Assembly: GCA_027064005.1 (NCBI GenBank) | Contig: JAMOQM010000106.1 | Span: 1-36,674 of the forward strand | Length of the DNA stretch: 36,674 nucleotides | Direction of reading: 5' to 3' | Source of the DNA: Candidatus Cloacimonadota bacterium | Lineage (GTDB): Bacteria > Cloacimonadota > Cloacimonadia > Cloacimonadales > JAMOQM01 | In this document: in pieces, positions 444 through 36,674 of the stretch | Position numbering within the stretch: position 1 is the first letter of the stretch | How the letters are laid out: each line of letters begins with the position of its first letter | The notes under the pieces: model-generated | What the model was told of the DNA's origin: nothing | Database searches by the model: none | The model's input: the letters and a program-made list of their open reading frames with translations, nothing else | Position numbers and translations under genes: made by a program

Positions 444-3080
444 CTATTTTAAAATGAGAATTTTTTTCGTAGAAGTATATTTTCCTGATTTTAATCTATA
501 GAAATAAACACCGCTTGAAATGGTTCTATTGTTGTCGTCTTTTCCATTCCAAATAATTCTATGATTTCCTTTTGAATATTCTTGATTTGTTAGTGTTTTT
601 AATTTTTGACCTTTGATATTATAAACTGCTAAATTAACATTCCCATCAGTAGGAATTGTAAATGAAATGGTGGTTGAATTCCCACGTTTTGAACCTGATG
701 GGTTGAATGGATTCGGGTAATTTTGGGAGAGAATAAACTTCGGATGATTAACATGATTATCAGAATTGCCCACAACCCCGATTTGCAAAGTATTCGTTGG
801 CAAGGATTCTCCAATATCAGAAACAACAGTAAGATAATAGTCATGAACACCATCGTTTTCAATATTTATAGAATTTTGATCTGCCGGGATAGTTTGGATG
901 ATATTCCCATCTTGATATAGATTATAACAAATCCAAGTATCCGGATCGACAAGTCGAGGTGGACACCATGAAAGATGATAAACGTTATTATCCATTTCTT
1001 TGTCCCATAAAAAATCCGGTTTTACCGGAGAATCTGTGTAAGGATAAATCCAATTGTTATTTAAGGATAATGGGAGCAAAATGTTTTCTTCAGAAATATT
1101 GAAATTATTTATTGTAAATCTTTGTTCACTATTGAAACCGTTATCTTCATCATAATCATTAAATTGAACCAAACCTATTCCACGTACAAACCATCTTCTT
1201 GAGCTTAATTGATTTTGATAAGAATAATCTAAAATATAAGCCGTTTTGTTTTCATCATTAATAGACAATTCCTGAGTTCCAACACATTCCACGCTAATAT
1301 AACGGACATCTTCATCACCTATATCAGCGGTTATAAAAGTATCGCCAATATTGAGAGAATCAGGCACAAAAATTGCCTCTTGTTCAACCGGAATTACTTG
1401 TTCAACGCCATCTTCCATAAATGAAAAAGAGTATATTTTTACTGCATTATCTTCATGATATAAATTAAAAGCAAATTGGTTCATATTTATAAATTCAGAA
1501 ACCCATAATTGGTAAATATCGTGGCCGTCTTCCTGATAATTATTATCAATCGAGATTTTAATTGTTGGTTTTTCTGAAGTTAGATTTAAATCCATTCCGG
1601 TAATAATTTCACCTGCAGTAATTGTGATAATTTGTGGAGAAGTAACTCCTCCGTAAGCTGTTATCAAATCATAATGGTCAAAATCAGGATCTCCGATATG
1701 ATTTGTATAAAATCCAAAACATGCTAAATAATAATTGCCGGGTTCGTTAATGTAAATATTGAAATCACCGGGATTAGTCAATAAATCATAAGCAACCGGA
1801 TCAGAGTCAATAGATTGACCTTCAGCAAATAATCCAACGCCATAATATTGAACTGCATTTGCATCATTACAAGTTAGAGTTCCTGAAATTATAGAAGTTG
1901 TTGCCGGATCGAAAATTGGTTGATAGTTAACAACTCCGGTTCCCGAATTATCATTTGCATCAGTGATTGAAGCTTCAATTTCATTTTCGTCAGTTGTGCC
2001 CCAAAAGTTGTTTTGAGCACTAATATTTTGGGAAGTATTACAATAAATCGAGCTTGAATTTCCTTGAAAAACATTATCGTGAATTTTATTCATTCCATCA
2101 TCATCACAACAGTCATTAGAAAGATCTCCGAGATTTGCTCCGGCATCATTGATAATGTAAAATCCGGTATAATTACCGTAAATTTCATTGTCGAAGAAAG
2201 TTCCGTAACAGTTTGAACCGTAAAGCATTACACCTGCTCCTGAATTTGGATCTCCATCAACAAAATTATTTCGGATAATGTTTTGATTAACATAACCATG
2301 ACCTTGATAAAAATAAATTCCTGTCAGATTATTTTCGATGACGTTGTTGATAATGGTTGCATCAATATACCCGGAGTTAAGAATATTTGCTTCGGTAATT
2401 CCTTGTTTCCCATTATGGTGAATTCGATTATTTTGGATGGTTGGAGTATTTAGATTGCTGTCATTTTGAGTAGCAAGTTGAATTGCACCATAGTATTGAG
2501 TTCCTAAGCCACATTGAGAAATATCATTTCCACTAATCAAGGCATTTGAATTTCCAACAATATAGATTCCGCTTTTTTGAACTGTGTTAATTTTTGAGTT
2601 TAGAATTTCCATTTGAGGTGGATCTTGAAGATTAAAATCAAAAAGCTGAATACCTTCAAAACAATTTTCTATATGGGAAAATCTAATAAGCACTTTACTT
2701 TCTACAGATGAGATTGCGTAATGGTTATCTCCGGTTCCGGTGAAATAGCAATAAAATATTTTATTGTTTTCAAAAGAAGATTCAATTCTTAAACCGTTCC
2801 AGAAACCATTATCATTAGATTGGAAACGAATTGTGTCATTAATTGTGCCGATTGCCGAAATTTTACCGTTTACTGTTAATCGTGTGTCATTATTAAATAA
2901 AACCATTACACCCGGTTGGATTGTTAAAATTTCTCCGGTAGGAACAACCACATCTCCGGTTACAATATACGGGCTATTTTCTTGCGTCCAAGTTCCGGAT
3001 TGTTCTCCGGAAACATCAATTGAAAAAAGTCCAAAACAGAATGATAATATCAATATTATCATTAAACTAATCCTTTTCAT
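444..3080 (-). CDS. Secreted right-handed beta-helix protein with type IX-like C-terminal sorting domain
   Basis: This is an 878-residue exported protein. The start ATG at 3080 is preceded by GGAGGTAAAA, and residues 1-25 form a classical signal peptide (MKRISLMIILILSFCFGLFS). Residues of about 30-390 carry repeated short N-rich strands of the form NNxI..N..GI, typical of parallel beta-helix (NosD/pectate-lyase-like) folds. A stretch at about 395-510 resembles a carboxypeptidase-regulatory-like beta-sandwich. A fibronectin-like segment follows at about 690-770. The last 90 residues start with LSQNYPNPFNP and end in a Lys-rich strand, matching the FCB C-terminal sorting/anchoring domain, so secretion and cell-surface display are expected. 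No catalytic residues could be assigned; adhesion or polysaccharide binding are possibilities only. It is monocistronic, divergent from rmuC, and followed by its own terminator. Confidence 0.85.
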   Translation of the reverse strand: MKRISLMIILILSFCFGLFSIDVSGEQSGTWTQENSPYIVTGDVVVPTGEILTIQPGVMVLFNNDTRLTVNGKISAIGTINDTIRFQSNDNGFWNGLRIESSFENNKIFYCYFTGTGDNHYAISSVESKVLIRFSHIENCFEGIQLFDFNLQDPPQMEILNSKINTVQKSGIYIVGNSNALISGNDISQCGLGTQYYGAIQLATQNDSNLNTPTIQNNRIHHNGKQGITEANILNSGYIDATIINNVIENNLTGIYFYQGHGYVNQNIIRNNFVDGDPNSGAGVMLYGSNCYGTFFDNEIYGNYTGFYIINDAGANLGDLSNDCCDDDGMNKIHDNVFQGNSSSIYCNTSQNISAQNNFWGTTDENEIEASITDANDNSGTGVVNYQPIFDPATTSIISGTLTCNDANAVQYYGVGLFAEGQSIDSDPVAYDLLTNPGDFNIYINEPGNYYLACFGFYTNHIGDPDFDHYDLITAYGGVTSPQIITITAGEIITGMDLNLTSEKPTIKISIDNNYQEDGHDIYQLWVSEFINMNQFAFNLYHEDNAVKIYSFSFMEDGVEQVIPVEQEAIFVPDSLNIGDTFITADIGDEDVRYISVECVGTQELSINDENKTAYILDYSYQNQLSSRRWFVRGIGLVQFNDYDEDNGFNSEQRFTINNFNISEENILLPLSLNNNWIYPYTDSPVKPDFLWDKEMDNNVYHLSWCPPRLVDPDTWICYNLYQDGNIIQTIPADQNSINIENDGVHDYYLTVVSDIGESLPTNTLQIGVVGNSDNHVNHPKFILSQNYPNPFNPSGSKRGNSTTISFTIPTDGNVNLAVYNIKGQKLKTLTNQEYSKGNHRIIWNGKDDNNRTISSGVYFYRLKSGKYTSTKKILILK

Positions 3081-9545: not shown

Positions 9546-10115
9546 ATGACAAAAAAAAGAAAATTAATTTTAATTGTTGATGATAATTCAGAAAATAGAA
9601 AAGTTTTGGGAAGTTTATTAACTCAAAACGGTTATGAAGTTGGTTCGGCAAGTGACGGTTTTAAAGCACTTAAATTTATTGAAAACAAAATTCCTGATTT
9701 GATATTATTGGATGTAATGATGCCGGGAATGGATGGTTTCGAGGTTTGCAAAAAATTAAAAGAAAATCATTCCACAAACTATATTCCGATTATTTTTTTA
9801 ACAGCAAAAACTAATACTGAAGATATTGTAAAAGGTTTCAAACTTGGTGGTGTTGATTATGTTTCAAAACCATTTAATAGTGAAGAGCTTCTTGCCAGGG
9901 TTAATACTCATATTGAAATAAATGTTTTACGAGGGATTTTACCAATTTGTTCACGGTGCAAAAAAATTAGAGATGATGATGGCTATTGGCATTCTGTAGA
10001 AGAATATATTTCTGAGCATTCGGAAGTGCAATTTTCCCACGGTTTGTGCAAAACTTGTGCTGATGAAATGTATGGAGATGAACCTTGGTACACTAAAGAT
10101 AAGATTAAAGAATAA
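9546..10115 (+). CDS. Response regulator, CheY-like receiver with C-terminal four-Cys zinc-finger-like tail
   Basis: A 189-residue protein with TGAGGT before the start. Residues 5-125 are a complete receiver domain. The acidic pair is D12/D13, the phosphoacceptor D56 sits in LILLDVMMPG, and T86 and K108 (in YVSKPF) complete the active site, so it should be phosphorylatable. The tail, about residues 130-189, has CSRCKKI (C135, C138), H165 and CKTC (C168, C171). It resembles a zinc-binding extension seen after receivers in several environmental bacteria, and no DNA-binding domain is present. The histidine kinase gene begins 35 bases downstream, so the pair is probably co-transcribed and cognate. 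The output is unknown; it may signal through protein contacts. Confidence 0.9.
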   Translation: MTKKRKLILIVDDNSENRKVLGSLLTQNGYEVGSASDGFKALKFIENKIPDLILLDVMMPGMDGFEVCKKLKENHSTNYIPIIFLTAKTNTEDIVKGFKLGGVDYVSKPFNSEELLARVNTHIEINVLRGILPICSRCKKIRDDDGYWHSVEEYISEHSEVQFSHGLCKTCADEMYGDEPWYTKDKIKE

Positions 10116-10150
10116 TTGAGATTAACTTTTTCTAATATTTTGGAGTGAGC

Positions 10151-13100
10151 ATGAAGATTTGGTTGTTAAAAAAGATAAGTGCCTTAATTTTAGTAAATTT
10201 ATTCTGTATTCCTATTTTATTCGGATTTCCGGCGTCAAAAGAGCAAAATCGTCTAAGTAATTTAACAAAAGCTGAGCAAGAATACATCAAAAATAATCCC
10301 GAAGTAAAAGTTGCAACAATTAAACATTATATGCCGTTTTCATATCTTAACCATAACAAACCGGTAGGTTTTTCCGTTGATGTTCTAAAAACAATTTCCC
10401 AAAGAACAGGTTTAAAGATAAAATATTTCCCTGATGAATGGCATAATAACTTAACAAAATTTAAAGAGGGAAAAGTTGATTTAATTACCGATATTTCCTA
10501 TACTAAAGAAAGATTGAACTTCACTTCTTACACTAAACCTTATTATGAAGTTCCAATTGCCGTTTTGTCGAGAACAAGTTTTGAGGGATATTCCGGAGTA
10601 AAATCCTTAGCAGGTAAAAAAGTAGGCATCATTAAAGATGTTTATTTTAAATCAAAATTAGAAAAGATTAAAAATTTGGATATTGTGGAATTTACTGATA
10701 CTGAGAGCCAGATATCGGCTTTATCTTATGGAAAAATTGATGTTGCAATTGGCGATGAAGCTCAATCAATTTACATCTCTCAAAGTAATGGTTTCACGAA
10801 TTTGAAAATTGTTTCAGATTTCCAAATGGAGGGAATTAAAAAAGAAGATTTAAGAATTGGCGTAAAGAAAAATGATGAAGTGTTGTATTCCATTATTAAC
10901 AAAGGATTAAGTTCTATTACTGCTGAAGAGTTTAACGCTCTCAAAAATAAATGGTTTGGAATTGCTCAACCACAAAAACACCAAATTAAATTCACAGATA
11001 AAGAAATTCAATTTTTAGAAAAACACCCCGTTATCAAAGTTGGAACTGAAATGTCTTGGATGCCTTATGATTTTGTTGTTAATGACCAAGCTAAAGGTTT
11101 TTCTGTTGATTATATGAAATTATTAGCTAAAAAAATAGGAATTCGTTTAAAATTTATCCATAATTTGAAATGGACTGAATTGGAAAATAAATTTAAAAAT
11201 AAAGAAATTGATGTTTTACCTGCTTTATATATGAACGATTACAGAAAAAAATATACGAATTTTACCAATGCTTATCAATTTGGGGGATTAGCAATTTTTA
11301 CCAATAAAGATAATAAGGAAATTAGAAGTACGAATGATTTAAAAGGGAAAAAAATAGCATTGATGAGAGGGGACGGTACAAATAAAGAAATTTTAAGATT
11401 ATTCCCTAACGTTAAGCCTGTCTATTATGATTATATGGGCGAAGTTATTCGCAGTGTTTCGGTTGGTAAAACGGATTTTGCAATAAATTCTCCTTTACTT
11501 GTTCATTATTATTCTAAGGAAAGACGAATAGTAAATTTAAAAATAGTGGAATATTTGAACAACTATAATCGTTTGAATCAAATATCAGCCATATATATCG
11601 GTGTTAGAAAAGATTGGCCAATTTTTAGAGACATTTTACAAAAAGCAATGAATTTTGTTTCTGATAAAGAATTTCTTGAAATTGAAAATAAGTGGAAAGG
11701 TAATCTTGTGGAAACAGTTTCCGTTCCAAAATTAAAACTGACAAAAAAAGAAAAAGATTTTATCCAAGAGCATCCTATTATTCGAATGGAAAATGAGAAT
11801 GATTATGCTCCATACAGTTTTTATGAAAACGGTAAAGCCAAAGGTTATACTATTGATTTTATGAATTTATTGGCAAAAAAAATCGGAATTAAATTGGATA
11901 TCGTTACAAATCGTCCATGGAGCGAATATCTAAGAATGCTAAAAAATAAACAGCTGGATGTTATCGGGAATATAGTAAAAACTGAAGATAGAAGTAAATA
12001 TACAATATTTACTAAACCCGTTTATAAAGATCCTCCGATAATATTTTGTGATAAAAAAAATTCATTGTTAAATACTTTGGAACAATTAAACGGCAAAATT
12101 GTGGCTGTTCAAAAAGGTTATTGGTATGAAGAAATTCTCAAAAAAAACTATCCCGAAACAAAAATATTATTAACCGACAGTAATATTGAAGGAATAAAAG
12201 CCGTTTATTTCGGTAAAGCCGATGCAATTATCGGTAAAGCTCCGATAATACAAAATTTAATAATATCAAATGGATTTTCCGATATCATTCCAACCGGTCT
12301 TGCGAAATTTAAAAATTCTACAAATTATTATGACAGAATTGGTGTTAGAAAAGATTGGCCTATTCTCAGAGATATTCTTGAAAAAGCAATGGACAGTGTT
12401 ACTTTTGAAGAAAGGCAGAAACTCAGGAAAAAATGGATTTTAACAACTCCATATCAGCAAAAAATAAATAAGATAAAGTTAACATCTAAAGAAAAAGAAT
12501 ATTTATCAAAGCGAGGACCTATCAAAATGGGAGTTGACCCGAATTGGTTACCTTATGAAGCTATTGATAAAAATGGAAAATATATTGGAATTGTTGCCGA
12601 TTACATCAAATTGTTCGAAAAGCGAATTGGTAAAAAAATTGAACCTGTACTGACAAAATCTTGGAATCAAACCATTGAATTCGGGAAAACAAGAAAATGC
12701 GATATTTTTTCAGCAGCGGCTGAAACACCTAATAGATTAAAATATATGAATTTCACAACACCCTATCTTTCATTCCCAACTGTTATCGTAACAAAAGAAA
12801 ACGTTAAGTTTATAGCAGAAACAAAAGACATTTTGAACAAAAAAATAGCCATGATTGAAAACTATGCTATTTCGGAATTGCTTCAAAACAAATATCCTAA
12901 GATGAATGTAGTAAAAGTAAAAAATATTGATGAAGGATTTCATTTGGTAAATTCAGGGAAAGTCTTCGGATATATCGGAGCTTTACCACCAATCAGTTAT
13001 CAAATCCAAAAAACCGGAATGGTGAATCTTAAAATAGCAGGGAAATTGGAAACTAATTTTTATTTGTCCGTCGCTGTTAGAAATGATGAACCTGTCCTTC

Positions 13101-14821
13101 TCGTAATTATGCAAAAAGCCATTAATTCCATAACACCTGAAGATCGTCAAAAAATAAACAATAAGTGGCTTAGCGTAAATTATGAGCGAAAATTTGATTA
13201 CTCACTGTTTTGGAAAATATTTTCAATAATAATAATTATTCTGATTATTATTCTTTATTGGAATAGACGATTACATAATGAAATTAAATTTAGGAAAAAT
13301 ATAGAAAAAAATTTAAAAGAGACTTTTGCTGAATTGAAAATTGCTAAAGAAAAAGCTGAAGATGCCAATAAAGCAAAATCAGAATTTTTGGCAAATATCA
13401 GTCACGAATTAAGAACTCCTTTGAATGCCGTGATAGGATTTAGTGAACTCCTTACTTCAACAATGAAAAATCAAAAGCAAGAAAGTTATGTTTTTTCAAT
13501 TAAAACTGCCGGTAAAAGTTTACTGACTTTAATAAATGATATCCTGGATTTATCTAAAATCGAATCAGGAAAATTGAAAATTACAAAAGGTTTTGTGAAT
13601 TTACGAAATTTAATCCAAGAGATGAAAATAATTTTTAGTGAACAAATAAAATCTAAAAATTTAGAATTGTTGATAGAGATTGCTGAAGATGTCCCGGAAA
13701 TTATTATCTCTGATGAAATTAGAATGCGACAAATTCTGTTAAATTTAATTGGTAATTCTATAAAATTTACGGAAAAAGGTTTTATCAAAATCAACGTAAA
13801 ATTATTGAGTGCTAATAAAGAAACCAATCAAATTAATCTTGAGATTTCTGTTGAAGATTCAGGTATTGGTATTGAAAAAGATTCTATTGAAAAAATATTT
13901 GAAGCTTTTCAACAACAAAATGGACAAGATGCAAAAAAATATGGTGGAACCGGTTTAGGTCTCTCAATCAGTAGAAAATTGGCTCAAGGTATGGGTGGAA
14001 AATTACTTGTTTCAAGTGAATTAGGTCAAGGTTCGAAATTTAGTCTTGTGTTGGAAAATGTGGAAGTTTCTGTTTGGAATATCAAAAAAGAAAAAGATGA
14101 TTCTGAAATTGTGTTAGATAAAATTAAGTATGAAAATAAAAATGTAATTGTTATCGATAGTGTTGATAGTAATCGAGAATTGCTTAAAACAGCTCTAAAT
14201 AAGGCAGGAATTAATGTTGTTAGTGAGCCCGAGATAATAAAATCATATAAAAATGATTTCGTTGAAGCGATTGATTTGATTTTTATTAATTTTGCCAGCA
14301 CTAATTTAGATTTATCTTTGATAGAGAAAAATTGTCTAAATGTTCCTGTTGTTGCAATAATTAATTCTCAAAATGATAGAGAGGATTTACCAAATTTTGA
14401 GTGTATTGTTGATTTTATTGATAAACCGCTTGATTTGCGTAAGATTATCTTAATTTTAAAGAAATTTCTTGGTTCACCAAATTCAATAAAGAATAAAGAT
14501 AATTTAGATGAAAATGCTCTTCTTTCTGATCTGCGTAAAGTCAAAGGAGTCGAAAAAATGATGAATATTTTGAATGATGAAATTATGTCCTCGGTTGATA
14601 AAATTAAAAAGGCAATTGTGATTAGTGAAGTAAGCTCTTTTGGTGAAAAACTTATTGAAATTTCAAAAAAACATAGTTTTGACTATCTTTACCGCATAGG
14701 TGAAAAGTTTCTTGAATATGCTGATATGTTTGATACAGACGCAATTGAAAATGAAATAGAGAAATTGGAAAAAACAATTAAAGAGATAAATGAAATATAT
14801 AATGAAAGATTTAAATCTTAA
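10151..14821 (+). CDS. Giant hybrid sensor histidine kinase with four tandem SBP_bac_3 (Venus-flytrap) domains and a degenerate receiver
   Basis: A 1556-residue BvgS/EvgS-like sensor kinase. The start is ATG 10151 with GGAG at 10142-10145; the upstream in-frame GTG at 10145 overlaps that site. In order it has a signal/anchor segment (about 1-26) and four periplasmic family-3 solute-binding domains (about 36-271, 280-518, 530-765, 776-1008). Each of the four opens with a (L/F)TxxExx(F/Y)(L/I) strand. A transmembrane helix at about 1017-1039 is followed by a short coiled coil. HisKA comes next with H1085 in [10 protein letters not shown], then HATPase_c with [19 protein letters not shown] and GGTGLGLS. 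The receiver-like domain at about 1335-1450 has N1380 where the phosphoacceptor Asp should be. A helical tail lacking a classical HPt motif ends the protein. The ligand is probably small polar solutes such as amino acids (inference). It likely phosphorylates the adjacent response regulator. Confidence 0.93.
11600..11619 (+). repeat. Intragenic direct repeat, copy 1 (sensor-domain duplication)
   Basis: The 20-base string GGTGTTAGAAAAGATTGGCC is identical to 12341-12360, 741 bases (247 codons) downstream. It encodes the GVRKDWP motif at the end of sensor domains 2 and 3. The exact one-domain spacing indicates tandem duplication of the binding-domain unit. Confidence 0.85.
12341..12360 (+). repeat. 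Intragenic direct repeat, copy 2 (sensor-domain duplication)
   Basis: Second copy of the identical 20-mer at 11600-11619, at the end of the third solute-binding domain. Flanking codons have diverged in third positions while the peptide context RDIL(Q/E)KAM is kept. Confidence 0.85.
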
Positions 14822-26883: not shown

Positions 26884-28235
26884 TGAAAATCAAAGATTTA
26901 ACTCCCACTAAAATTGTACAACAACTTGATAAATATATTATTGGGCAATCGAATGCTAAAAAATCAGTTGCAATTGCAATGAGAAACAGATGGAGAAGAT
27001 TGCAAATTTCCGGTGAGCTTCAAAAAGAAATTACTCCCAATAATATTATTCTTATTGGCCCTACCGGAGTTGGAAAGACTGAGATTGCCAGAAGATTATC
27101 ACAAATATCGAATTCTCCATTTGTAAAAGTAGAAGCTTCCAAATTTACCGAAGTCGGATATGTTGGACGAGATGTAGAAGCAATGGTTCGAGAATTATTG
27201 GATGTTGCTATCAATCAATTGAAAAGTCAAATGTCCGAGGAAGTTAAATCTAAAGCTTTAGAAAATGCTAAAGAGCGAATTTTAGATATTTTAATTCCGA
27301 TGCCAAAGATAGATGTAGATGATGTTGAGTCGGAAGAATCTCGAGATCGATATTTTAGAACTAGAGATAAGCTTTCCAAAATGCTCGATGAAGGTAAATT
27401 AGACGATAGAGAAATTGAAGTCGTAATCACCGATAAACAACCGCAATTTGAGTTGTTAACAAATATCGGAATGGATAATATCGATTTGAATATTGGGGAA
27501 ATGCTTTCAGGCATTATTCCCGGAAAAAAGAAGAAGAAAAACAATAAAATGAAGATTCCTGAGGCTTTGAAATATTTCATAAAAGAAGAATCTGAAAGAC
27601 TTGTACCTAAAGATAAAGTTGTGAATGAAGCAAAGAAATTGGTGGAAGAAAATGGGATTATCTTTATTGATGAAATTGACAAAATAGCATCTTCCGGTCC
27701 AAAACAAAATAATGATATTTCACGATCCGGTGTACAAAGAGATTTGCTTCCAATAGTTGAAGGTTCAAATGTACCAACGAAATATGGAATTATTAATACT
27801 TCTCATATTCTATTTATTTCTGCCGGAGCATTTAGTGTTTCGAAACCGTCAGACTTAATTCCGGAATTACAGGGAAGATTCCCAATCAGGGTTGAGTTAA
27901 ATAGTCTTCAGAAAGAGGATTTTATTAAAATCTTGAAGTATCCCAAAAATTCTCTCATAAAGCAATATATGGCTCTGTTTTTAACTGAAAATGTTGACTT
28001 AACTTTTGATAATGATGCCATTTCATTAATTGCGGAATTTGCTGAAACAGCTAATGAGAAAATGGAAGATATTGGTGCGAGGCGTTTACATACAATAATG
28101 AATACTCTCCTTCAGGATTATCTTTTTGATCTTCCCGAAAGTAAATTAAGTGAAATAAATATTACTGTTGATGAGGTAACTGAAAAGTTAAGTTCTCTGA
28201 TTGAGGATGAAGATTTATCGCGATATATTTTATAA
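26883..28235 (+). CDS. hslU: ATP-dependent protease ATPase subunit HslU
   Basis: A 450-residue Clp/Hsp100 unfoldase that feeds substrates to HslV. It opens with TPTKIVQQLDKYIIGQ. Walker A is GPTGVGKT at 59-66, followed by KVEASKFTEVGYVGRDVE with the pore loop. A charged, Lys-rich intermediate domain covers about 110-235. Walker B is IIFIDEIDKIAS. Sensor and arginine-finger stretches are in ELQGRFPIRVEL. The C-terminus reads EDLSRYIL, the conserved tail that inserts between HslV subunits to activate it. A convergent intrinsic terminator follows the stop. Confidence 0.97.
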   Translation: MKIKDLTPTKIVQQLDKYIIGQSNAKKSVAIAMRNRWRRLQISGELQKEITPNNIILIGPTGVGKTEIARRLSQISNSPFVKVEASKFTEVGYVGRDVEAMVRELLDVAINQLKSQMSEEVKSKALENAKERILDILIPMPKIDVDDVESEESRDRYFRTRDKLSKMLDEGKLDDREIEVVITDKQPQFELLTNIGMDNIDLNIGEMLSGIIPGKKKKKNNKMKIPEALKYFIKEESERLVPKDKVVNEAKKLVEENGIIFIDEIDKIASSGPKQNNDISRSGVQRDLLPIVEGSNVPTKYGIINTSHILFISAGAFSVSKPSDLIPELQGRFPIRVELNSLQKEDFIKILKYPKNSLIKQYMALFLTENVDLTFDNDAISLIAEFAETANEKMEDIGARRLHTIMNTLLQDYLFDLPESKLSEINITVDEVTEKLSSLIEDEDLSRYIL

Positions 28236-28242
28236 ATTCAAA

Positions 28243-28269
28243 AGCCCGATTTTTTCGGGCTATTTTTTT
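28243..28269 (+). terminator. Terminator shared by hslU and the convergent gene
   Basis: AGCCCGA (28243-28249) pairs with TCGGGCT (28255-28261) around a T-rich loop and is followed by seven Ts at 28263-28269. The 3' side of the stem includes bases of the TAG stop codon (28262-28260) of the minus-strand gene, so the two converging operons share one hairpin. It is weaker on the minus strand, where the T tract is interrupted. Confidence 0.8.
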
Positions 28270-29345
28270 AGCAATTTTTTAAGTTTTTCTTTTACTTCTA
28301 ATTTAGCAATTTTTTTTGCATCCTTGGTGGAAATTAAACTCAAACCGGTCCCGACAGCTTCATAATGTTTGAGGATATTTTTATTTTTTATAATGTATGC
28401 ATCACCTTTTATTTTCGCAAAATAACCTTGAATTTGACTTTTTCCGGAACTTATTGTCATATAATGTGTTTTAAATAAAATAGCTGTTTTTTGTCTGGAA
28501 ATCTTGTATCCGATTTTCATCAGATTTTCGTCAAAGAAATGATCAAGATTTTGAATAAGAGGTGGGGAATATCTATTAATCTGAATTTGTTGTTTCTTAA
28601 AATTAATATTTTTGGAAATTAGATTTCGGAAAAAGGATTTATTTTCAACATTGTTTAACTGAAAGGTTTTTACTTCATCAAATAACAAATTTATACTTCG
28701 GAAATTAGCTATATTTTTGAGAAAAATTTCCCCATTTGAATTAGTCGAATATTTTTTTCCATTTATCAAAAAATACAAATTCTTCATTGGATTACCGGCA
28801 AAAGATACAAGCATAATAGGAATATTTGAAGGAACGTTATTAATGATATTTATTGATTTGGCAGGGGAAAATCTAATTCGTCCGATTTGTAATTTAAGTT
28901 GCTCTATTTTTGCTTTTAAAACAATTTTTTGACTGTTATCAAAATTAATTGGGATAAGTAATTTATCAATATCTCTAATATTATTTATCATTCTCTCAAG
29001 ATTGTTTTCAATATATTCTTCCTCATTAATCATATTGAGGCGTGAGTTAAATTCTTTTTGCAGGATTGTGTTTAGTTTATCCAAATCAATATTGAACATT
29101 TTTTTATTCTTATCAAAAGTGATTAAATTATCAATTTTGGTTTTTGTGAAATTGTCTTTAATCAGCACATTTTTTAATGATAAATCCCTATTTAGTTTAG
29201 TTTGTAACTTTAAAATGACTTTTTGTTTGAATTGATTAAATTCAAATTGGTAATTTTTGGTTGAAGTGATTTTAATTGAAAAATTATTAGAAAATAAATT
29301 GGCAGAAATAATAAAAAATGCAAATAACAGTTTAACGAATTTCAA
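28260..29345 (-). CDS. Exported protein of unknown function, last gene of the kinase/FHA cluster
   Basis: I do not recognise a named family. With the TTG start at 29345, preceded by AGGAAGA at 29359-29353, the 361-residue product has a clean signal peptide (KFVKLLFAFFIISANLFS). An upstream TTG at 29375 would add ten polar residues and lacks a ribosome binding site. The mature part is Lys/Asn/Ile-rich, with a coiled-coil-prone stretch around 90-160. It ends with a segment of about 60 residues (YFAKIKGDAYIIKN ... GTGLSLISTKDAKKIAKLE) recalling LPP20/FlgT-like domains, whose last helix is rich in Ala/Lys; this similarity is weak. It overlaps the FHA gene by 14 bases, so it belongs to that operon and probably acts in the periplasm or outer membrane. 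Confidence 0.75.
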   Translation of the reverse strand: MKFVKLLFAFFIISANLFSNNFSIKITSTKNYQFEFNQFKQKVILKLQTKLNRDLSLKNVLIKDNFTKTKIDNLITFDKNKKMFNIDLDKLNTILQKEFNSRLNMINEEEYIENNLERMINNIRDIDKLLIPINFDNSQKIVLKAKIEQLKLQIGRIRFSPAKSINIINNVPSNIPIMLVSFAGNPMKNLYFLINGKKYSTNSNGEIFLKNIANFRSINLLFDEVKTFQLNNVENKSFFRNLISKNINFKKQQIQINRYSPPLIQNLDHFFDENLMKIGYKISRQKTAILFKTHYMTISSGKSQIQGYFAKIKGDAYIIKNKNILKHYEAVGTGLSLISTKDAKKIAKLEVKEKLKKLLKK

Positions 29346-31449
29346 AACTAAATCTTCCTGAGTTGAAAATCTCAAATTGTTTAAATATTTTTTCCGGCAA
29401 TTTACTTAAAGCGTCTATCATCATAAAATTGGGATGACTGTATTTTATTACTAAAGAATTTTTCTCAATCTGAGAATTAATTTTGCCGTTAAGAAGATTA
29501 ATACTACAAAAATTGTCATTCTTCAAATAGATGAAATCGGTATTAGATAGAGTTTTAACAACTTTTTTTATTAAATCATCTTTAAGTAGAGTTTGATCTA
29601 TTAATTCAACAAATTTAATCAAAACAAAATTTTTATAGTTTACTGTTTTAAAAATAAAGGTTTTAGCAATTGAAAAGGTTAAATCTGTTGAAATATTGTA
29701 AGTTGAGAATTTCTGGTTATTTATATAAGTACCATTTGTAGAATTCAAATCATTAATTGTGAAGCTATTGAAATTAAATAAAAGATGTTTTCCCGAAACC
29801 CAATTACATTTTATAATAATATCGTTTTGAGAATCTCGACCTAAAGTAATTACAGGTTTAGAAAAGATAATATAATTATGGGTAGTATAATTATCCAATA
29901 TATAGAGCTGAGAATATTCTGTATCCAAATTATTGGGATTAGTATTCAAAGATTTTTTTTTTTGATTGGAATCACTTTGCGGTAAATTCAAATCTTGGGA
30001 AAAATCCTCCGATATTTTGTTTTTTTTATTTGGGAAAACAATTCTAACTTTTTCCTCGGGAAGTTCTTTTAAATAGGCTTTTTTATTTTTTTGAAGGAAA
30101 TTTATCATTTCAATATCTTTTAGTTTCATGAAGTAAGAAATGGCGAAATCAAATCCTGAGCTGAATTCGTCTCTGTTTTTAGCTTCTGAGATTTTATCAT
30201 TAAAAATATCCTCAATTAATTCATATAAATCATTTTTACTGTTTGAAAGCAAGGAAGTTATATTTGTTCGTAATTGTTCTTTATCATGATGTATTTGCAA
30301 TTGATCCTGAAGATAGATCTGAAAGTTTATCAATTCCTTTATTTTTAATTCAGACGGTTCTGCGTTGATAATATCATTATAATATTCATAATATTTAAGT
30401 GATTCATTATCAAATTTTTTGGTTAAAAACAGATTAAACTTATCTTCAATTTGTTTCAAAGAAGGCGAGAGGTTTATCCATTCGATAAAATTGATATTTT
30501 TAAATTCATCAAAAACTTTAATTGATTTTAATAATCTGGAAACTGTTGAATAATCTACGGAATTGGGATTAATTAGGATTTTATTATAAGTTCTCTGCAA
30601 GACAGGGTAATCATTATTTAAAAAATTAAGAAAATCTCCATAAACTTCTTTAATTGTAAAAATTGTTTTGAAGTCGGAGCTATTAATATAAAGTTGAAGT
30701 GGAGTGAATAATTTTTCAAAAGAATCAATAAGCTGAACAATAACTTTCAGAGAAGGGAATTTTTTTTTCTTTTCGATCGAAATTAAGTGGTTAAAATAAT
30801 TATAGAGTGAAGTAAATTTGATGTTTATAAGATTTTTAATATTAATATAAAGTTGATTGTTTTTCTTTAATTCATTCTGGTAGTTTACTAATATTCCTTT
30901 GATTTTCATAACTTCAGTTAAACCAAATTTTTCATCCGGGATTTCTGTAAGTTCTTGAAGAGCATTAATTTTATCATTAAGCGTCAGACTGCTAAACATC
31001 ATTTTTCGATAATTGTTTGCAAGGGCAACATTTGTCTCTGACAAAACAGCAATAGCCATTCTTAAAGATTTCTCGAATTTTAGACGATTTGATTCGGCAT
31101 GGATATATTCTTCAATAAAATTGATAGTATAATTTAAGTAAGATGTTTGGATTTTATTTTTTAGACGTGTTACAGAAGGATCATTAAACGGGCTTTGTTT
31201 CATTTGAATATCACATTTTAGAATTTCAATCAATGCGTTTTTTAAATGATTAACATGTTTCCAACCGGTAAAATTTTTAGATAAAGTAAAATATTTTTGA
31301 GCTGCATAAAACCACTCTCTTGTAACAGGAGGCATTCCTAAAAACTTATTAAAAATTTTAGACGACCTATTCAAAGTGGCCAAATATTCTGCTGTTTCTT
31401 TACGAGCAACATCCTTCAAAGTACTAATTTTCTCAAAATAAATATTCAT
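29332..31449 (-). CDS. FHA-domain protein with long helical N-terminal region
   Basis: A 705-residue, apparently cytoplasmic protein (no signal peptide or membrane helix). Residues of about 1-470 are helical and Lys/Leu/Asn-rich with no family I recognise. A low-complexity QKKKS linker follows. An FHA domain lies at about 525-605 with all phosphothreonine-binding residues present: GRDS in ITLGRDSQND, the S..H of VSGKH, and the NSTNGTYINN loop. About 100 further residues follow the FHA. FHA domains bind phosphothreonine peptides, so the Ser/Thr kinase two genes upstream is the obvious partner (inference). AAGGAT precedes the ATG at 31449; the CsgG-like gene ends 12 bases upstream. Confidence 0.88.
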   Translation of the reverse strand: MNIYFEKISTLKDVARKETAEYLATLNRSSKIFNKFLGMPPVTREWFYAAQKYFTLSKNFTGWKHVNHLKNALIEILKCDIQMKQSPFNDPSVTRLKNKIQTSYLNYTINFIEEYIHAESNRLKFEKSLRMAIAVLSETNVALANNYRKMMFSSLTLNDKINALQELTEIPDEKFGLTEVMKIKGILVNYQNELKKNNQLYINIKNLINIKFTSLYNYFNHLISIEKKKKFPSLKVIVQLIDSFEKLFTPLQLYINSSDFKTIFTIKEVYGDFLNFLNNDYPVLQRTYNKILINPNSVDYSTVSRLLKSIKVFDEFKNINFIEWINLSPSLKQIEDKFNLFLTKKFDNESLKYYEYYNDIINAEPSELKIKELINFQIYLQDQLQIHHDKEQLRTNITSLLSNSKNDLYELIEDIFNDKISEAKNRDEFSSGFDFAISYFMKLKDIEMINFLQKNKKAYLKELPEEKVRIVFPNKKNKISEDFSQDLNLPQSDSNQKKKSLNTNPNNLDTEYSQLYILDNYTTHNYIIFSKPVITLGRDSQNDIIIKCNWVSGKHLLFNFNSFTINDLNSTNGTYINNQKFSTYNISTDLTFSIAKTFIFKTVNYKNFVLIKFVELIDQTLLKDDLIKKVVKTLSNTDFIYLKNDNFCSINLLNGKINSQIEKNSLVIKYSHPNFMMIDALSKLPEKIFKQFEIFNSGRFSFEIR

Positions 31450-31461
31450 TATACATCCTTG

Positions 31462-32076
31462 TTAAATAAAAAAGTACAAATAAAAAATCAAAAAATTAAC
31501 TAAAAGCCATATGAAAATAATAAAAATTCTATAATAACCTTTTGTCAAGAAATGTATATAAATTATTATAATTGTCGTAATTAGTAGTGTTAGAAGAAAG
31601 AATTTTACGCTAACCTTCACTTTTTGTTTCTCTGATAAGTGGTAAATATTTTTTGTTGTTCCATCTTTTATTGAATCAATTGTAATAAAATAATCTCTGA
31701 TAATAATTTTTTTTAAAATCAGATTTAAAGTTGTAGTTTTTCCTTTAACAAATATTGCCCAATCAGAAGGTAAAAATTTGTGAGATTTGGAATTCAAAAA
31801 ATGGGGCTCGTCTTGAAGCATTGCTTGTTTTGCCAAATCACTGAGATTTTTTCTATCAAGAATTGAAAAATAATTTTCTTTAAGAATTAGATCTTGAGTT
31901 TGTTCAATTAATTTGCGGTTCTCATTTGTAATGTTTAAAAAAGTAATGTGAGATTTTTTAGGAAGCGATTCTTTTAAAAATTTGTATATTTTTATTGCAG
32001 ATCTATTTTGAACAGCTGAATTATTGCAAAATAAAATAGTTGGAAATAGAAAAAGTAATATTAAATATCTTCGCAT
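31462..32076 (-). CDS. CsgG/LpoB-like exported domain with C-terminal membrane anchor
   Basis: A 204-residue protein with an N-terminal signal peptide (MRRYLILLFLFPTILFCNN); the Cys is not in a good lipobox. Residues of about 25-75 show the pattern of CsgG/LpoB/FlgO-like domains. These are a strand ending in ITFLNITNEN, a helix, then YFSILDRKNLSDLAKQAMLQ, comparable to the FxVVxRxxLxxILxEQ motif of the family. Two hydrophobic helices near the C-terminus (about 155-204) would anchor it in the inner membrane, with the domain facing the periplasm. Its ATG abuts the kinase stop directly with only a weak ribosome binding site, so translation is probably coupled. The family assignment is tentative. 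Confidence 0.72.
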   Translation of the reverse strand: MRRYLILLFLFPTILFCNNSAVQNRSAIKIYKFLKESLPKKSHITFLNITNENRKLIEQTQDLILKENYFSILDRKNLSDLAKQAMLQDEPHFLNSKSHKFLPSDWAIFVKGKTTTLNLILKKIIIRDYFITIDSIKDGTTKNIYHLSEKQKVKVSVKFFLLTLLITTIIIIYIHFLTKGYYRIFIIFIWLLVNFLIFYLYFFI

Positions 32077-35000
32077 TTATCTTTTAACCACTCTGAAACC
32101 GATAAAATTAGTCCTTGTATTTGCTTTTGCTGCACTTCGGTAAAACGTAATCATCTTCTTTTTATCAAATGACCAGGCACCACCTCTTAATGAATGCATC
32201 TGAAAACCGTTATCAAAAATATCTGTATCACTTCCTTTGGGATTTATTTCCGGGGAAATTTGATAATAATCTTTATCATAAACATCAGAACACCATTCCA
32301 TTATATTTCCACAAATTTCATAGATCCCAAGTTTAGAAGGTTTGTAAGTTTTTATTGGAACGACTGAATGCCATTTATTGTCATTATTCTCTTCCAAAAA
32401 ATTTGCATCTTTTAAGGATATTGTTGCCCCGGTTGGATAAAGAATTTCTTTCCCGCCATTTCTTGCGACAAATTCCCATTCTGCTTCTGTGGGTAAATAA
32501 CCTCCACTCCATTTGCAATATTCCTGAGCACCATACCAACTTACTTCAATTACCGGAAATGCATTATATGGTTCTTTTGGTACAAAAAGACCGTTTTTAA
32601 ATTCAATCATACAATGTGGACTCAGTATATTAATCCATTCAACATTAAAAGTTTTCTGATTACCTTTTGAATTTAGAAATTTACAAAATTGTTCGTTTGT
32701 AACATTTGTTTCCGAAATATAAAAACTTGAAAGTGTAACTTTATGAACGGGTGCATTTTTAAAACCGGATTTAAGGAAATCACCCATTTCGAAAGAATCA
32801 CCATTTATATGAACAAATTTGAGTTGAGGTTCGTTATTTTTTAACAATTCTTTTTTGGATATTTTTAGCCATTTATCTAATTTTAGAGCCGGATTTATTT
32901 TTAATGATTGGGATGCTGTTATGAAAATACCTTCAAATTCCTTATTCTTTTTATGATTTTTTATTTTTTGAATTATTTTTTTGAAGGTCAATTTAGATAA
33001 TTTTTTAAAAGATTTATTTTTAGAATCAGAATGAGCGAGAATTTTAAGATAATGAAGGGCGTTATTATTTTCCGGTGAATAGAGTTGTTGTAACTCCAAA
33101 TTTTTTTCAACAGCTTTAACGAGTTTGTCAAATTTCTCAGGGATTATTTTTGGGGCTTCCGGATTGTTTTTAGTTGTAATTTTCTTTTTAATTGGAGATT
33201 TTTTCTTTTTTATTGGTTTTGAAAATGAAGTTTTGAAAATATTTTTAATGATATTTATCATAGTTAAAATCAGGATAATGAATAAGAAAATCAGCAATTT
33301 TTCAATTATATTATAGTTATCACGATAAAATTCACTTTTTTTATTTTTACTATTAATATCGTTAAATATTTTTCTTTGATTAGGAAGTAATTGTGCGGAA
33401 TTATCAACATTGATAGATTTCAAAGAATTTGTTTTGTTTAAAATATTGAATGATAAACTTGGAAATGTGGTCAAAGCAATATTCTCTAATTTTTTAAAAT
33501 TTTGCACACCATTCAAATTCACTAATTTTGATTTAGATACGTCTAAGTCTGAAAGCTGTTTTAATCTAAAAATATTATTCAAATTAATTGCTCCACAATT
33601 AGATATATTTAATTTTGTGATGGAATGAACAGAATTAATTGAGTTTAAGCTGATTTGCGGATTCCCTGAAATATCTAACGCAGATAATAAAAATCTCTTT
33701 TTTAAAGGATATAATTTTTTTATATTTGAATCCGGATCAATTGATAAAGCTGAGATTGTATAAGGTAGATTCTCTATTTGGATGTGGTTTGCGTTTTTTT
33801 GAAGATTTATCATTACTCCAAATTTAGATATATTTTCTAAAGAATTTCTTAAGAAAATTATTCTTTGATTATTGATATTTAGAAATTCAAATTTAGCGTT
33901 TGTGATTAAATCATTACTATTTTTTAACTCTTTACCAACAAGGATTCCATTTTTATAGATTAAATTTTTATTAATGGAAATATTTAATTTTGGCTCATCT
34001 TTATAATTAAATTCATAAATAATATGCCCGTTTTCATCTTTTAACTGAACAAAATCTCCATATTCTAATTTAAGCTTTTCCGGGCTTTTCCCTTCAAATT
34101 TGAAATTAACAAAAGTTTGATAGTTGCCGGTTTTAAAAGGAATTAAATTGTTTTTATGAGAATGATTTTTAAAAATATTCATAAAATAAGGTTGGAGTAA
34201 AAAGAAAATTAAGAAAATCAAAAATAACATTAAATAAGCTTGTTTAAGATTATAATTATTTTTAGAATTTACAGAATCTGCTTTTTCTAAAAACGAGAAT
34301 AGTTTGGAAAATGGATAGGGTAAAACTTGGCGTTTTAATTTTTTTAAATCAGCAATTACTTCTTCCATAGAATTGTATCTGTCTTCCGGATACATTTCTA
34401 AACATTTTTTTAGAATTATATTTTTGGGATTTTTAGAAGAATTTATTTTTTTGGGAAGAATATAATCGGGTGTTTCATTTGAATCTAACTTAAATGGATA
34501 AGAGTTATGGAAAAGTTCATAAAGGACTATTCCAAAAGAAAAGATGTCAGATTTTAAAGATGGCTTTTCGCCCCATTTAATTTCGGGCGGTAAATAAGCC
34601 TGCGTACCTCTAATTCCGTTTTGAGATTTTTCCAATTCTATATTTGTTGCAATTCCAAAATCGGTAAGTTTGACTTCTTTTTTATTATTGATTAAAATAT
34701 TTTGGGGTTTAATATCTTGATGAATGACGAGATTGTCGTGAGCATATTTAATTCCTTTTGCCAAATCCAAAGCGATATTTAAACGATCATTATTTGATAA
34801 ACCGGATTTAGAATTGATGAACTCTCGAAGGTTTTGGCCTTCAAAATATTCCATATCAAGCAGAATATAGTCATGATTAAAATCAATGTCGAATATTCTC
34901 ACAATTGATGGATGGTTAAGATTTGCTAATATCCGGGCTTCGTGATTCAAATCATCGGCGAGCTCACTTAATTCTGATTGCTCACCGAGGATTTTAATCG

Positions 35001-35127
35001 CTTTATAAATTTTTAACTTGGTATCAAAACAATGATAAACTTCGGAAAATGTTCCACTTCCAATTTGATCGATAATTTTATAACGATCATTTACAATATC
35101 ACCATTTTTAAAAGAATATTTACTCAT
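32077..35127 (-). CDS. Transmembrane Ser/Thr protein kinase with leucine-rich ectodomain and C-terminal SUMF1/FGE-like domain
   Basis: A 1016-residue mosaic protein. Residues 15-270 are a Hanks-type kinase with a glycine loop IGSGTFSEVY, K45 in YKAIKIL and E63. The catalytic loop is HQDIKPQN (136-143, with Gln instead of the usual Arg), the DFG motif is at 156-158, and GTQAYLPPE is the substrate/P+1 loop. A hydrophobic helix lies at about 297-318, then an ectodomain with degenerate leucine-rich repeats around 475-590 (ITKLNISNC, LSDLDVSKS). A second helix (about 605-630) is followed by a Lys-rich linker (KPIKKKKSPIKKK). Residues of about 765-1016 form a SUMF1/formylglycine-enzyme-like fold with GYLPTEAEWEFVAR, GNIMEWCSDVYD, LRGGAWS and IGFRVVKR. 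No catalytic Cys sits near the end, so formylglycine formation is unlikely. It heads the minus-strand signalling cluster. Confidence 0.93.
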   Translation of the reverse strand: MSKYSFKNGDIVNDRYKIIDQIGSGTFSEVYHCFDTKLKIYKAIKILGEQSELSELADDLNHEARILANLNHPSIVRIFDIDFNHDYILLDMEYFEGQNLREFINSKSGLSNNDRLNIALDLAKGIKYAHDNLVIHQDIKPQNILINNKKEVKLTDFGIATNIELEKSQNGIRGTQAYLPPEIKWGEKPSLKSDIFSFGIVLYELFHNSYPFKLDSNETPDYILPKKINSSKNPKNIILKKCLEMYPEDRYNSMEEVIADLKKLKRQVLPYPFSKLFSFLEKADSVNSKNNYNLKQAYLMLFLIFLIFFLLQPYFMNIFKNHSHKNNLIPFKTGNYQTFVNFKFEGKSPEKLKLEYGDFVQLKDENGHIIYEFNYKDEPKLNISINKNLIYKNGILVGKELKNSNDLITNAKFEFLNINNQRIIFLRNSLENISKFGVMINLQKNANHIQIENLPYTISALSIDPDSNIKKLYPLKKRFLLSALDISGNPQISLNSINSVHSITKLNISNCGAINLNNIFRLKQLSDLDVSKSKLVNLNGVQNFKKLENIALTTFPSLSFNILNKTNSLKSINVDNSAQLLPNQRKIFNDINSKNKKSEFYRDNYNIIEKLLIFLFIILILTMINIIKNIFKTSFSKPIKKKKSPIKKKITTKNNPEAPKIIPEKFDKLVKAVEKNLELQQLYSPENNNALHYLKILAHSDSKNKSFKKLSKLTFKKIIQKIKNHKKNKEFEGIFITASQSLKINPALKLDKWLKISKKELLKNNEPQLKFVHINGDSFEMGDFLKSGFKNAPVHKVTLSSFYISETNVTNEQFCKFLNSKGNQKTFNVEWINILSPHCMIEFKNGLFVPKEPYNAFPVIEVSWYGAQEYCKWSGGYLPTEAEWEFVARNGGKEILYPTGATISLKDANFLEENNDNKWHSVVPIKTYKPSKLGIYEICGNIMEWCSDVYDKDYYQISPEINPKGSDTDIFDNGFQMHSLRGGAWSFDKKKMITFYRSAAKANTRTNFIGFRVVKR

Positions 35128-35206
35128 AACCTAATTGCGAATATTCACAAAAATTAATCAACCATTTTTTTTATTTTATTGAAAATATAAAGTATTGGTA
35201 GCATGA

Positions 35207-36373
35207 TTATTGTGAATTGTATTCAACAACAATAACTTTGCCATCGGTCGTGCAGGCAATTGTACCGCAATTAAAATGGTAATTTGCTCCGGAATAAGAT
35301 TGAGACGGTATTTCGGTTCCGTAAACTTGATAATGAGAAAATCTTGATAAGCTATGAGGATGTCCATAAGGATTACCGGTTCCAAAACTAATTCCGGCAA
35401 TTTTATTATTCTGATTTAATACCGCATTCAAAAATTCCGACGATGAAGATGTATGAGAACCATGATGTCCAACTTTTAAAACATCGGAAGAAAGAGGAAG
35501 GTTTGCTTCAATCATGTGTTGTTCTAAAGATCTTTCAGCATCTGCTGTTAATAAAAATTCCGCATCTCCATAGACAACATGCAAAACAAAACAAGAGTTA
35601 TTATCATTTGAATCTACACCATTCGGTACTCCAACATTCAAAATTTCCACACTGGCATTTGAATTCAAATCAAGGAAATCTCCAACTTGTTTGTTTTCGT
35701 GACTTTGAACAGTAAAATAATGATCGTAAGACATATCATCAGCTTCTCTAATATCACGAACTCCACCATAATGGTCTGAATCACTATGCGATTCTATCAA
35801 GTAGGTAAAATGATTAATATCGCGAGATCTTACATAATTTAGCATTATCGGTACTCCATCGCCATCCCAAGAACCGTCATCTTCGCCACCCGGTTGTCCC
35901 CAAGGAGGTTCATGTGTTCCAAATCCACCGTCAAATACAACATTTTCACCTTCGGGAGTAATTATCAGATTTCCTTCTCCTTGAGCGATATCAACAAAAT
36001 CTACTTCAAGGTGTGAATAATCTGTTTTAGTGGCAGTAAAATTTATGGTAGAATCTTGAATGGATGAATCATTTTCAACAACCAAAGTCATCGTAATATT
36101 TGATGTATTTGATTTTATCGGAATTGAAAATTTGATACTGTCTGTCATTGCGCCGGCAAGATATCCATCGTAATCTTTAGACAGATTGTCGGTAGATCTG
36201 TAGGAAAAATGTAAATTTACGGCCGACTTTGTTTGAACAGTTACAGTATTATTTTCAGTAGTTATTTTAGTTATTAAATGATTTGTTTGGCTTTGAACCG
36301 ATATTGGTGTATTAGTTCCACAACCAAAAATAAGCAATAATAATGCAATGCTTAAGATTATAATTTTTTTCAC
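35207..36373 (-). CDS. ComEC/Rec2-like metallo-beta-lactamase-fold lipoprotein
   Basis: A 388-residue exported protein. It starts at GTG 36373, with AAGGAGA at 36384-36378 deciding the start. Residues 1-18 are a lipoprotein signal, with the lipobox ending IFGC at C18. An Ig-like segment of about 90 residues precedes a metallo-beta-lactamase domain of the ComEC C-terminal type. The domain shows VDIAQGEGNLI, VVFDGG, the metal motif HSDSDHYGG, FLLTADAE, LKVGHHGSHTSSS and a late GHPHS. ComEC channel helices are absent, so this is a stand-alone extracytoplasmic hydrolase, possibly a nuclease or phosphodiesterase. Its start overlaps the stop of the upstream Rpn-family gene by four bases (GTGA). Confidence 0.9.
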   Translation of the reverse strand: MKKIIILSIALLLLIFGCGTNTPISVQSQTNHLITKITTENNTVTVQTKSAVNLHFSYRSTDNLSKDYDGYLAGAMTDSIKFSIPIKSNTSNITMTLVVENDSSIQDSTINFTATKTDYSHLEVDFVDIAQGEGNLIITPEGENVVFDGGFGTHEPPWGQPGGEDDGSWDGDGVPIMLNYVRSRDINHFTYLIESHSDSDHYGGVRDIREADDMSYDHYFTVQSHENKQVGDFLDLNSNASVEILNVGVPNGVDSNDNNSCFVLHVVYGDAEFLLTADAERSLEQHMIEANLPLSSDVLKVGHHGSHTSSSSEFLNAVLNQNNKIAGISFGTGNPYGHPHSLSRFSHYQVYGTEIPSQSYSGANYHFNCGTIACTTDGKVIVVEYNSQ

Positions 36374-36674
36374 TCTGTCTCCTTAGTTTTACTTTTATTA
36401 GTAAGCAAAATTTTATTTTTAATAATTTTTATTTCTTTTAGACTCAATCCGGTGATTTCGGCGATATCTTCAATATCGATTTGTTTGGTAAGCATTTTTT
36501 CTGCTATTTTAACGGTTTTATTTTTTTCACCTTCTTTTATACCATCTATTTTTCCACTGATATAATGAGATTCATACATACTTGCACCTTGATGAAGTTC
36601 CCATTGATATTTTTCATATTCCGCTCTTTCAGCTTCACTCATCTTCAGTACATCTAATTTTTCTTTGGCTTCTT
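36370..36674 (-). CDS. Rpn-family nuclease/putative transposase, C-terminal fragment (start lies beyond the window)
   Basis: The frame is open from the right window edge to the TGA at 36372-36370. An internal ATG at 36642 is not the true start, because coding continues upstream (EAKEKLDVLK before it). The visible part has the Rpn-family tail: a helical region with AEYEKYQWELHQ, then a GKIDGIKEGEKNKTVKIAEK charged linker and a terminal helix-turn-helix-like segment, DIEDIAEITGLSLKEI. The PD-(D/E)XK catalytic half is outside the window. Its last four bases overlap the metallo-beta-lactamase lipoprotein start, so the two are translationally coupled. It is a different copy from the N-terminal piece at the left edge. 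Confidence 0.75.
   Translation of the reverse strand, partial: EAKEKLDVLKMSEAERAEYEKYQWELHQGASMYESHYISGKIDGIKEGEKNKTVKIAEKMLTKQIDIEDIAEITGLSLKEIKIIKNKILLTNKSKTKETE

Follow-up and report, generated by a model that had tools for sequence, protein, structure and literature searches.

Four genes on the minus strand of the window, the whole 36,674-nucleotide stretch of Candidatus Cloacimonadota DNA analysed here, probably make up a single module, present in part of the Cloacimonadota, that signals from the envelope to the cytoplasm and in which an FHA protein would dock as an effector or a scaffold. We assign this reading a probability of about 0.6. The receptor-kinase/FHA module is real, conserved and of a known general kind, and is apparently undescribed; a search of the open-access literature found no paper describing the four-gene set. 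A single module is supported by the tight run of the genes up to a terminator-like site, their nested presence among genomes, the recurrence of gene pairs and an invariant FHA site.

The four head-to-tail open reading frames have the order and strand given in an earlier note on this DNA. They encode, all on the minus strand, a receptor kinase of 1016 amino acids (32077–35127), an LpoB/CsgG-like envelope protein of 204 (31462–32076), an FHA protein of 705 (29332–31449) and an exported protein of 361 (28260–29345). The LpoB-like gene starts directly at the stop of the kinase gene (0 nt), 12 nt lie between it and the FHA gene, and the exported gene overlaps the FHA stop. The run is closed by a hairpin terminator-like site with a 7-bp stem (28243–28261; no strand assigned, T run on the plus strand and a weaker one on the minus strand), which separates it from hslU, converging on the other strand. 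Upstream of the kinase gene, at a distance of 79 nt, is an unrelated metallo-beta-lactamase gene. It was rejected as a fifth member, since none was seen next to the module in other genomes, and no recurrent fifth gene was seen beside the module in different families. Elsewhere in the window, a very large sensor histidine kinase with four SBP_bac_3 (solute-binding-protein) matches (10145–14821) adjoins a response regulator (9546–10115), and a beta-helix protein (444–3080) shows weak matches to FlgD Ig and T9SS-type C-terminal sorting domains.

The receptor kinase, defined by its open reading frame, Pfam and a family alignment, begins with a Hanks kinase domain (residues 16–254; PF00069, E = 5.9e-52). 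This is followed by a first transmembrane helix (298–316), a predicted periplasmic region of degenerate leucine-rich repeats and a second helix (612–630), and then by a basic linker, a helical segment and a domain of the SUMF1/FGE fold (771–1015; PF03781, E = 2.1e-46). The helices were called by hydropathy, and exactly two hydrophobic helices lie between the kinase and SUMF1 domains in all nine aligned relatives. Leucine-rich-repeat models match the middle region in eight of the nine family members (LRR_4; best E value 2.3e-8), while the window's own copy gives no match at E ≤ 0.1. The chain of about 1,000 residues is 30–35% identical over its whole length to those of eight other genomes. An initial search for related loci with the kinase as query returned none; family-alignment searches later did find relatives. 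PADLOC matches are limited to the kinase domain and include no whole-protein match, and the identification as a known anti-phage defence kinase was rejected on that ground.

The sequence points to a cytoplasmic SUMF1 domain: the kinase requires cytoplasmic ATP, the pair of helices brings the chain back to the side of the kinase, and the second helix is directly followed by a strongly basic stretch. Only the middle region should be periplasmic. The proposed fusion of a kinase, two helices, a leucine-rich ectodomain and a SUMF1-like domain thus stands in its domains and helices, and the SUMF1 domain moves from the ectodomain to a predicted cytoplasmic position. The positions aligned with the two active-site cysteines of the formylglycine enzyme, which we take to be human C336 and C341, are not cysteine in any of the eight SUMF1 members covering the region. 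Users of the fold other than formylglycine enzymes, such as GldK/PorK and a Treponema variable protein, are among the matches of the domain.

The second protein, assigned from its open reading frame, alignment and Pfam at the family level, has a signal peptide, an LpoB/CsgG-like domain and two C-terminal membrane helices joined by a conserved KGY turn. One of the eight family members exceeds the Pfam LpoB cut-off (25.0 versus 22.3 bits), the others match weakly or not at all, and the window's copy alone has no Pfam LpoB match; the label CsgG-like is therefore kept for the family and not for the single sequence. Unlike LpoB/CsgG-like periplasmic proteins, the family is anchored by its two C-terminal helices, and the window's copy is not a lipoprotein by sequence. 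A search of the PDB with the family profile gave nothing usable, and the same was true of the exported family. The exported protein most likely starts at TTG 29345, where AGGA precedes the start by about 10 nt and the signal peptide follows immediately. The exported fourth reading frame of the earlier note is retained, its start at 29375 (371 amino acids) being corrected to 29345. The protein has no recognisable domain and its structure model reaches a mean pLDDT of 35; it is a kept partner directly 3' of the FHA gene.

The FHA protein, delimited by its open reading frame, Pfam, an AlphaFold model and alignment, has no membrane helix and consists of a conserved all-helical domain (residues 1–462), an FHA domain (about 515–600; PF00498, E = 5.4e-12 over 534–587) and a conserved C-terminal beta domain (600–705). 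In the model, built from four sequences (mean pLDDT 77), the helical domain extends up to residue 462 and a disordered linker leads to the FHA domain, which is followed by the further beta domain. A fold search with it returned FHA domains; helical-domain matches to Exo70, MUN and TPR folds were rejected at TM-scores near 0.1. A resemblance between the C-terminal end and a phospholipase-D-like protein of f8 genomes was likewise set aside as a chance local match. Among solved structures, the FHA part matches, for instance, the FHA domains of EmbR, GarA and OdhI, and its best NCBI family is actinobacterial FhaB, below cut-off. G537/R538, S552, H555 and T571-N572-G573-T574 make up a complete predicted phosphothreonine site in the window's copy, and these G, R, S, H, T, N, G and T residues are the same in every aligned row that reaches them, which bears out the complete site reported before. 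The alignment, inspected by eye, contains no conserved threonine before the FHA domain of the kind found in GarA/OdhI-type substrates. One FHA domain and two Hanks kinases were counted in the window's genome. The second of these kinases is a 1829-residue kinase-TPR-histidine-kinase fusion (G000:C56:21883-22623; L048 5156-10642) with relatives in most Cloacimonadota genomes searched.

With these parts, a state of the envelope would be sensed by the periplasmic region of the kinase, in probable cooperation with the exported protein and with the LpoB/CsgG-like protein anchored in the membrane. The cytoplasmic kinase would phosphorylate itself or a partner on threonine, and the FHA protein, the only one of its genome, would dock on that phosphothreonine, with its helical domain serving the scaffold or effector function. 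For the SUMF1 domain, which is non-catalytic and forms the cytoplasmic end of the kinase, the probable role is the binding of a protein or ligand that recruits substrate or regulates the kinase.

The catalytic residues are consistent with the phosphorylation step in most carriers. The window's kinase retains the complete motif set of an active Hanks Ser/Thr kinase, namely K45 (VAIK), E63, H136-D138, N143 and D156-F-G, and is a non-RD kinase. K45, H136, D138, K140, N143, D156 and F157 are invariant in the nine aligned kinases, and the lysine, the alpha-C glutamate, HxD, the asparagine and DFG are all retained in seven. The exceptions are the two kinases of genus g9 (genomes G008 and G020; loci L106 2606-5695 and L107 7865-10951), in which the DFG glycine is replaced by serine (DFS), the alpha-C glutamate is lost and the glycine loop is poor; the FHA partner retains its binding site in both. 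The simplest reading is a kinase that is active in most carriers and possibly a pseudokinase in one genus, where, given DFS and the missing glutamate, kinase activity may not be needed. This argues against a simple universal switch from kinase to FHA protein. The lack of a conserved threonine before the FHA domain and one genome, G010, in which a kinase is kept and the FHA gene is frameshifted also count against the module model.

The same residues bear on an unlikely alternative in which the kinase would serve chiefly as a scaffold. As a receptor that binds ATP it would assemble an envelope complex, and the threonines bound by the FHA protein would be phosphorylated by a different kinase of the cell, such as the kinase-TPR-histidine-kinase protein found across the phylum. 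The degenerate g9 kinases beside intact FHA sites suit this explanation, as do the presence of a second Hanks kinase in most genomes of the phylum and the arginine before the catalytic aspartate, which occurs only in G003, so that eight of the nine kinases are non-RD. However, non-RD kinases can be fully active, and the catalytic set kept in seven of nine family members argues for a working enzyme.

The association of the four genes was analysed by family-alignment searches over 126 Cloacimonadota genomes, the window's own (G000) included. A whole-length kinase was found in ten, of which nine also have a full-length or contig-cut FHA protein (G000, G002, G003, G004, G008, G010, G012, G016 and G020); the tenth, G023, is a genome 64% complete. 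The next matches of the kinase search are kinase-only or SUMF1-only and score much more weakly. The LpoB-like protein is present in eight genomes, all inside the kinase set (G000, G002, G003, G008, G012, G016, G020 and G023). Seven genomes, all inside the FHA set, have the exported protein (G000, G002, G003, G004, G008, G016 and G020), a count that leaves out three further matches with E values of 3e-4 to 6e-4. The absences of the LpoB-like gene from G004 and of the exported gene from G012 can be explained by contig ends. In G010 the FHA gene is broken into two overlapping reading frames by a frameshift or an assembly error (L036 10020-12127; G010:C2), and no partners were detected. Outside the phylum, a sparse sample of about 260 genomes yielded no full-length relative of the kinase or the FHA protein, the matches being confined to kinase, SUMF1 or FHA domains. 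These distributions support a co-inherited set, with the FHA, LpoB-like and exported sets all nested in that of the kinase. With phylogeny ignored, the hypergeometric p is 6e-13 for the overlap between the kinase and FHA sets and 4e-8 to 4e-11 for the other pairs; the genomes are not independent. The whole-length kinase alignment and this strong co-occurrence place the four genes beyond chance association.

Gene order is conserved in part. All four genes lie together in the window's genome and, across a contig break, in a second family: one contig of G002 ends, after the kinase and LpoB-like genes, two thirds of the way through the FHA gene, and another begins with the remainder of that gene followed by the exported gene. 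The expected conservation of the order in a relative is therefore observed in full once, with partial orders elsewhere. The LpoB-like, FHA and exported genes share one locus in G003, whose kinase is on another contig; the LpoB-like and FHA genes are adjacent in G012, and the FHA and exported genes in G004. G008, G016 and G020 carry the kinase and LpoB-like genes at one locus and the FHA and exported genes at another. In family f9 the set thus occupies two loci without the loss of any of the four genes. The kinase/LpoB-like pair recurs in families f1, f3 and f9, the LpoB-like/FHA pair in f1, f3 and f4, and the FHA/exported pair in f1, f3, f4, f5 and f9.

These distributions could also arise if the neighbours were co-inherited without a common pathway and shared only through the carrier families being one lineage, an explanation we consider improbable. 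All carriers belong to six families of one order, and in a marker tree of one gene, the phylum-wide kinase-TPR-histidine-kinase protein, which covers four of the six carrier families, f1, f3, f5 and f9 branch at an unresolved base; the p values therefore overstate independence, and one ancestral origin is possible. Nevertheless, every adjacent pair recurs in different families despite differing surrounding genes, and f9 keeps the set at two loci. The four families branch separately in the marker tree, and no bootstrap tree out of 200 unites them in a single clade (3–4 changes), which suggests, for this one gene and these four families, that the four genes were probably jointly lost or gained more than once. 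The kinase and FHA protein trees both recover f9; the f4 pair forms a branch in the kinase tree and is unresolved in the FHA tree.

A detached type VI secretion (T6SS) regulatory module of the PpkA/Fha1/TagR type that would act on a secretion machine, contractile or not, encoded at another site of the genome shares three module types in principle, a kinase, an FHA protein and a SUMF1 fold (PMC3953482), and is hardly credible given that TssC/VipB (PF05943) was found in none of 12 genomes searched, ten of them carriers, with a positive E. coli control, that no T6SS genes were recognised in any module neighbourhood, and that the SUMF1 domain is part of the kinase chain and predicted cytoplasmic. 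The earlier note would have counted extension of the cluster into a known T6SS in close relatives against its proposal; with no sheath gene in any carrier genome, that objection does not arise. The idea of a rewired PpkA/Fha1/TagR switch finds no support, the FHA domain being closest to FhaB (below cut-off) and the SUMF1 domain being fused to the kinase on the predicted cytoplasmic side; nor does the cluster hold a PppA-type phosphatase gene.

If the four genes form one module, it would be a compact, separate receptor-kinase/FHA set of an uncultured phylum. As the window's genome has only two kinases of the Hanks type and a single FHA protein, the pairing of kinase and reader is testable almost without cross-talk, and the family provides a natural series from intact to apparently dead kinases beside a conserved FHA site, as well as a new FHA-linked helical domain. 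Tentatively, the module might serve a Cloacimonadota-specific control of envelope stress or growth, in which the leucine-rich-repeat kinase and the LpoB-like protein would form one sensor, a new class of FHA scaffold with a 460-residue helical domain would carry the signal, and in one genus the kinase would have become a pseudokinase that acts as a scaffold, with recruitment of the FHA protein preserved. Genomes of family f10 (L044, L047; G078:C59, G064:C58) have a cluster of another kind, in which Hanks kinases are combined with FHA proteins that bear a zinc ribbon and with a phosphatase-like protein (contains GNLSDVGRVRDENQD); the kinase/FHA toolkit of the phylum thus seems to come in two alternative forms. 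On one further contig (G032:C118 253-6992), 7 kb hold at least four Hanks kinases encoded by separate genes.

That a receptor kinase can work with an FHA reader is an established principle, and the best-studied cases are those of Actinobacteria and of bacteria with T6SS. The T6SS threonine phosphorylation pathway comprises PpkA, Fha1, PppA and TagQRST (PMC3953482), and resembles the present set in its membrane Ser/Thr kinase, its FHA reader and a SUMF1-fold protein upstream. The window's set differs in having no sheath or phosphatase gene, in the fusion of the SUMF1 domain to the kinase, in the leucine-rich ectodomain and in the LpoB-like partner. No PP2C phosphatase is found by Pfam within the four genes, the one of the window's genome being on another contig; since TssC/VipB is also missing from the carriers, the pathway serves only as an analogy for the cooperation of a kinase and an FHA protein and not as a sign of family membership.

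The kinase-CLec proteins of cyanobacteria, some of them diversified by retroelements, likewise combine a Hanks kinase with a C-terminal C-type-lectin-like (SUMF1/FGE-like) fold (PMC7517822). By contrast, the C-terminal domain of the window's kinase is conserved and not hypervariable, and is accompanied by a transmembrane leucine-rich part and an FHA operon partner. A reading as a variable protein of a diversity-generating retroelement (DGR) was rejected, as no VR/TR repeats of at least 40 bases occur at 28000–36674. The T9SS ring lipoprotein GldK/PorK also uses the SUMF1 fold without formylglycine-enzyme function, but is a periplasmic lipoprotein without a kinase. PknB-type transmembrane kinases with FHA partners (GarA/OdhI, FhaA/FhaB) share the plan of a single-chain receptor kinase and an FHA reader, and the NCBIfam matches of the two proteins, PknB_PASTA_kin (216 of the 450 bits needed, over the kinase region only) and FhaB, point the same way, both below cut-off. 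The window's kinase differs from them in having no PASTA repeats by Pfam and in its two transmembrane helices with a leucine-rich loop and a predicted cytoplasmic SUMF1 domain, and its FHA partner, which has no conserved N-terminal phospho-acceptor threonine, carries the long helical domain instead.
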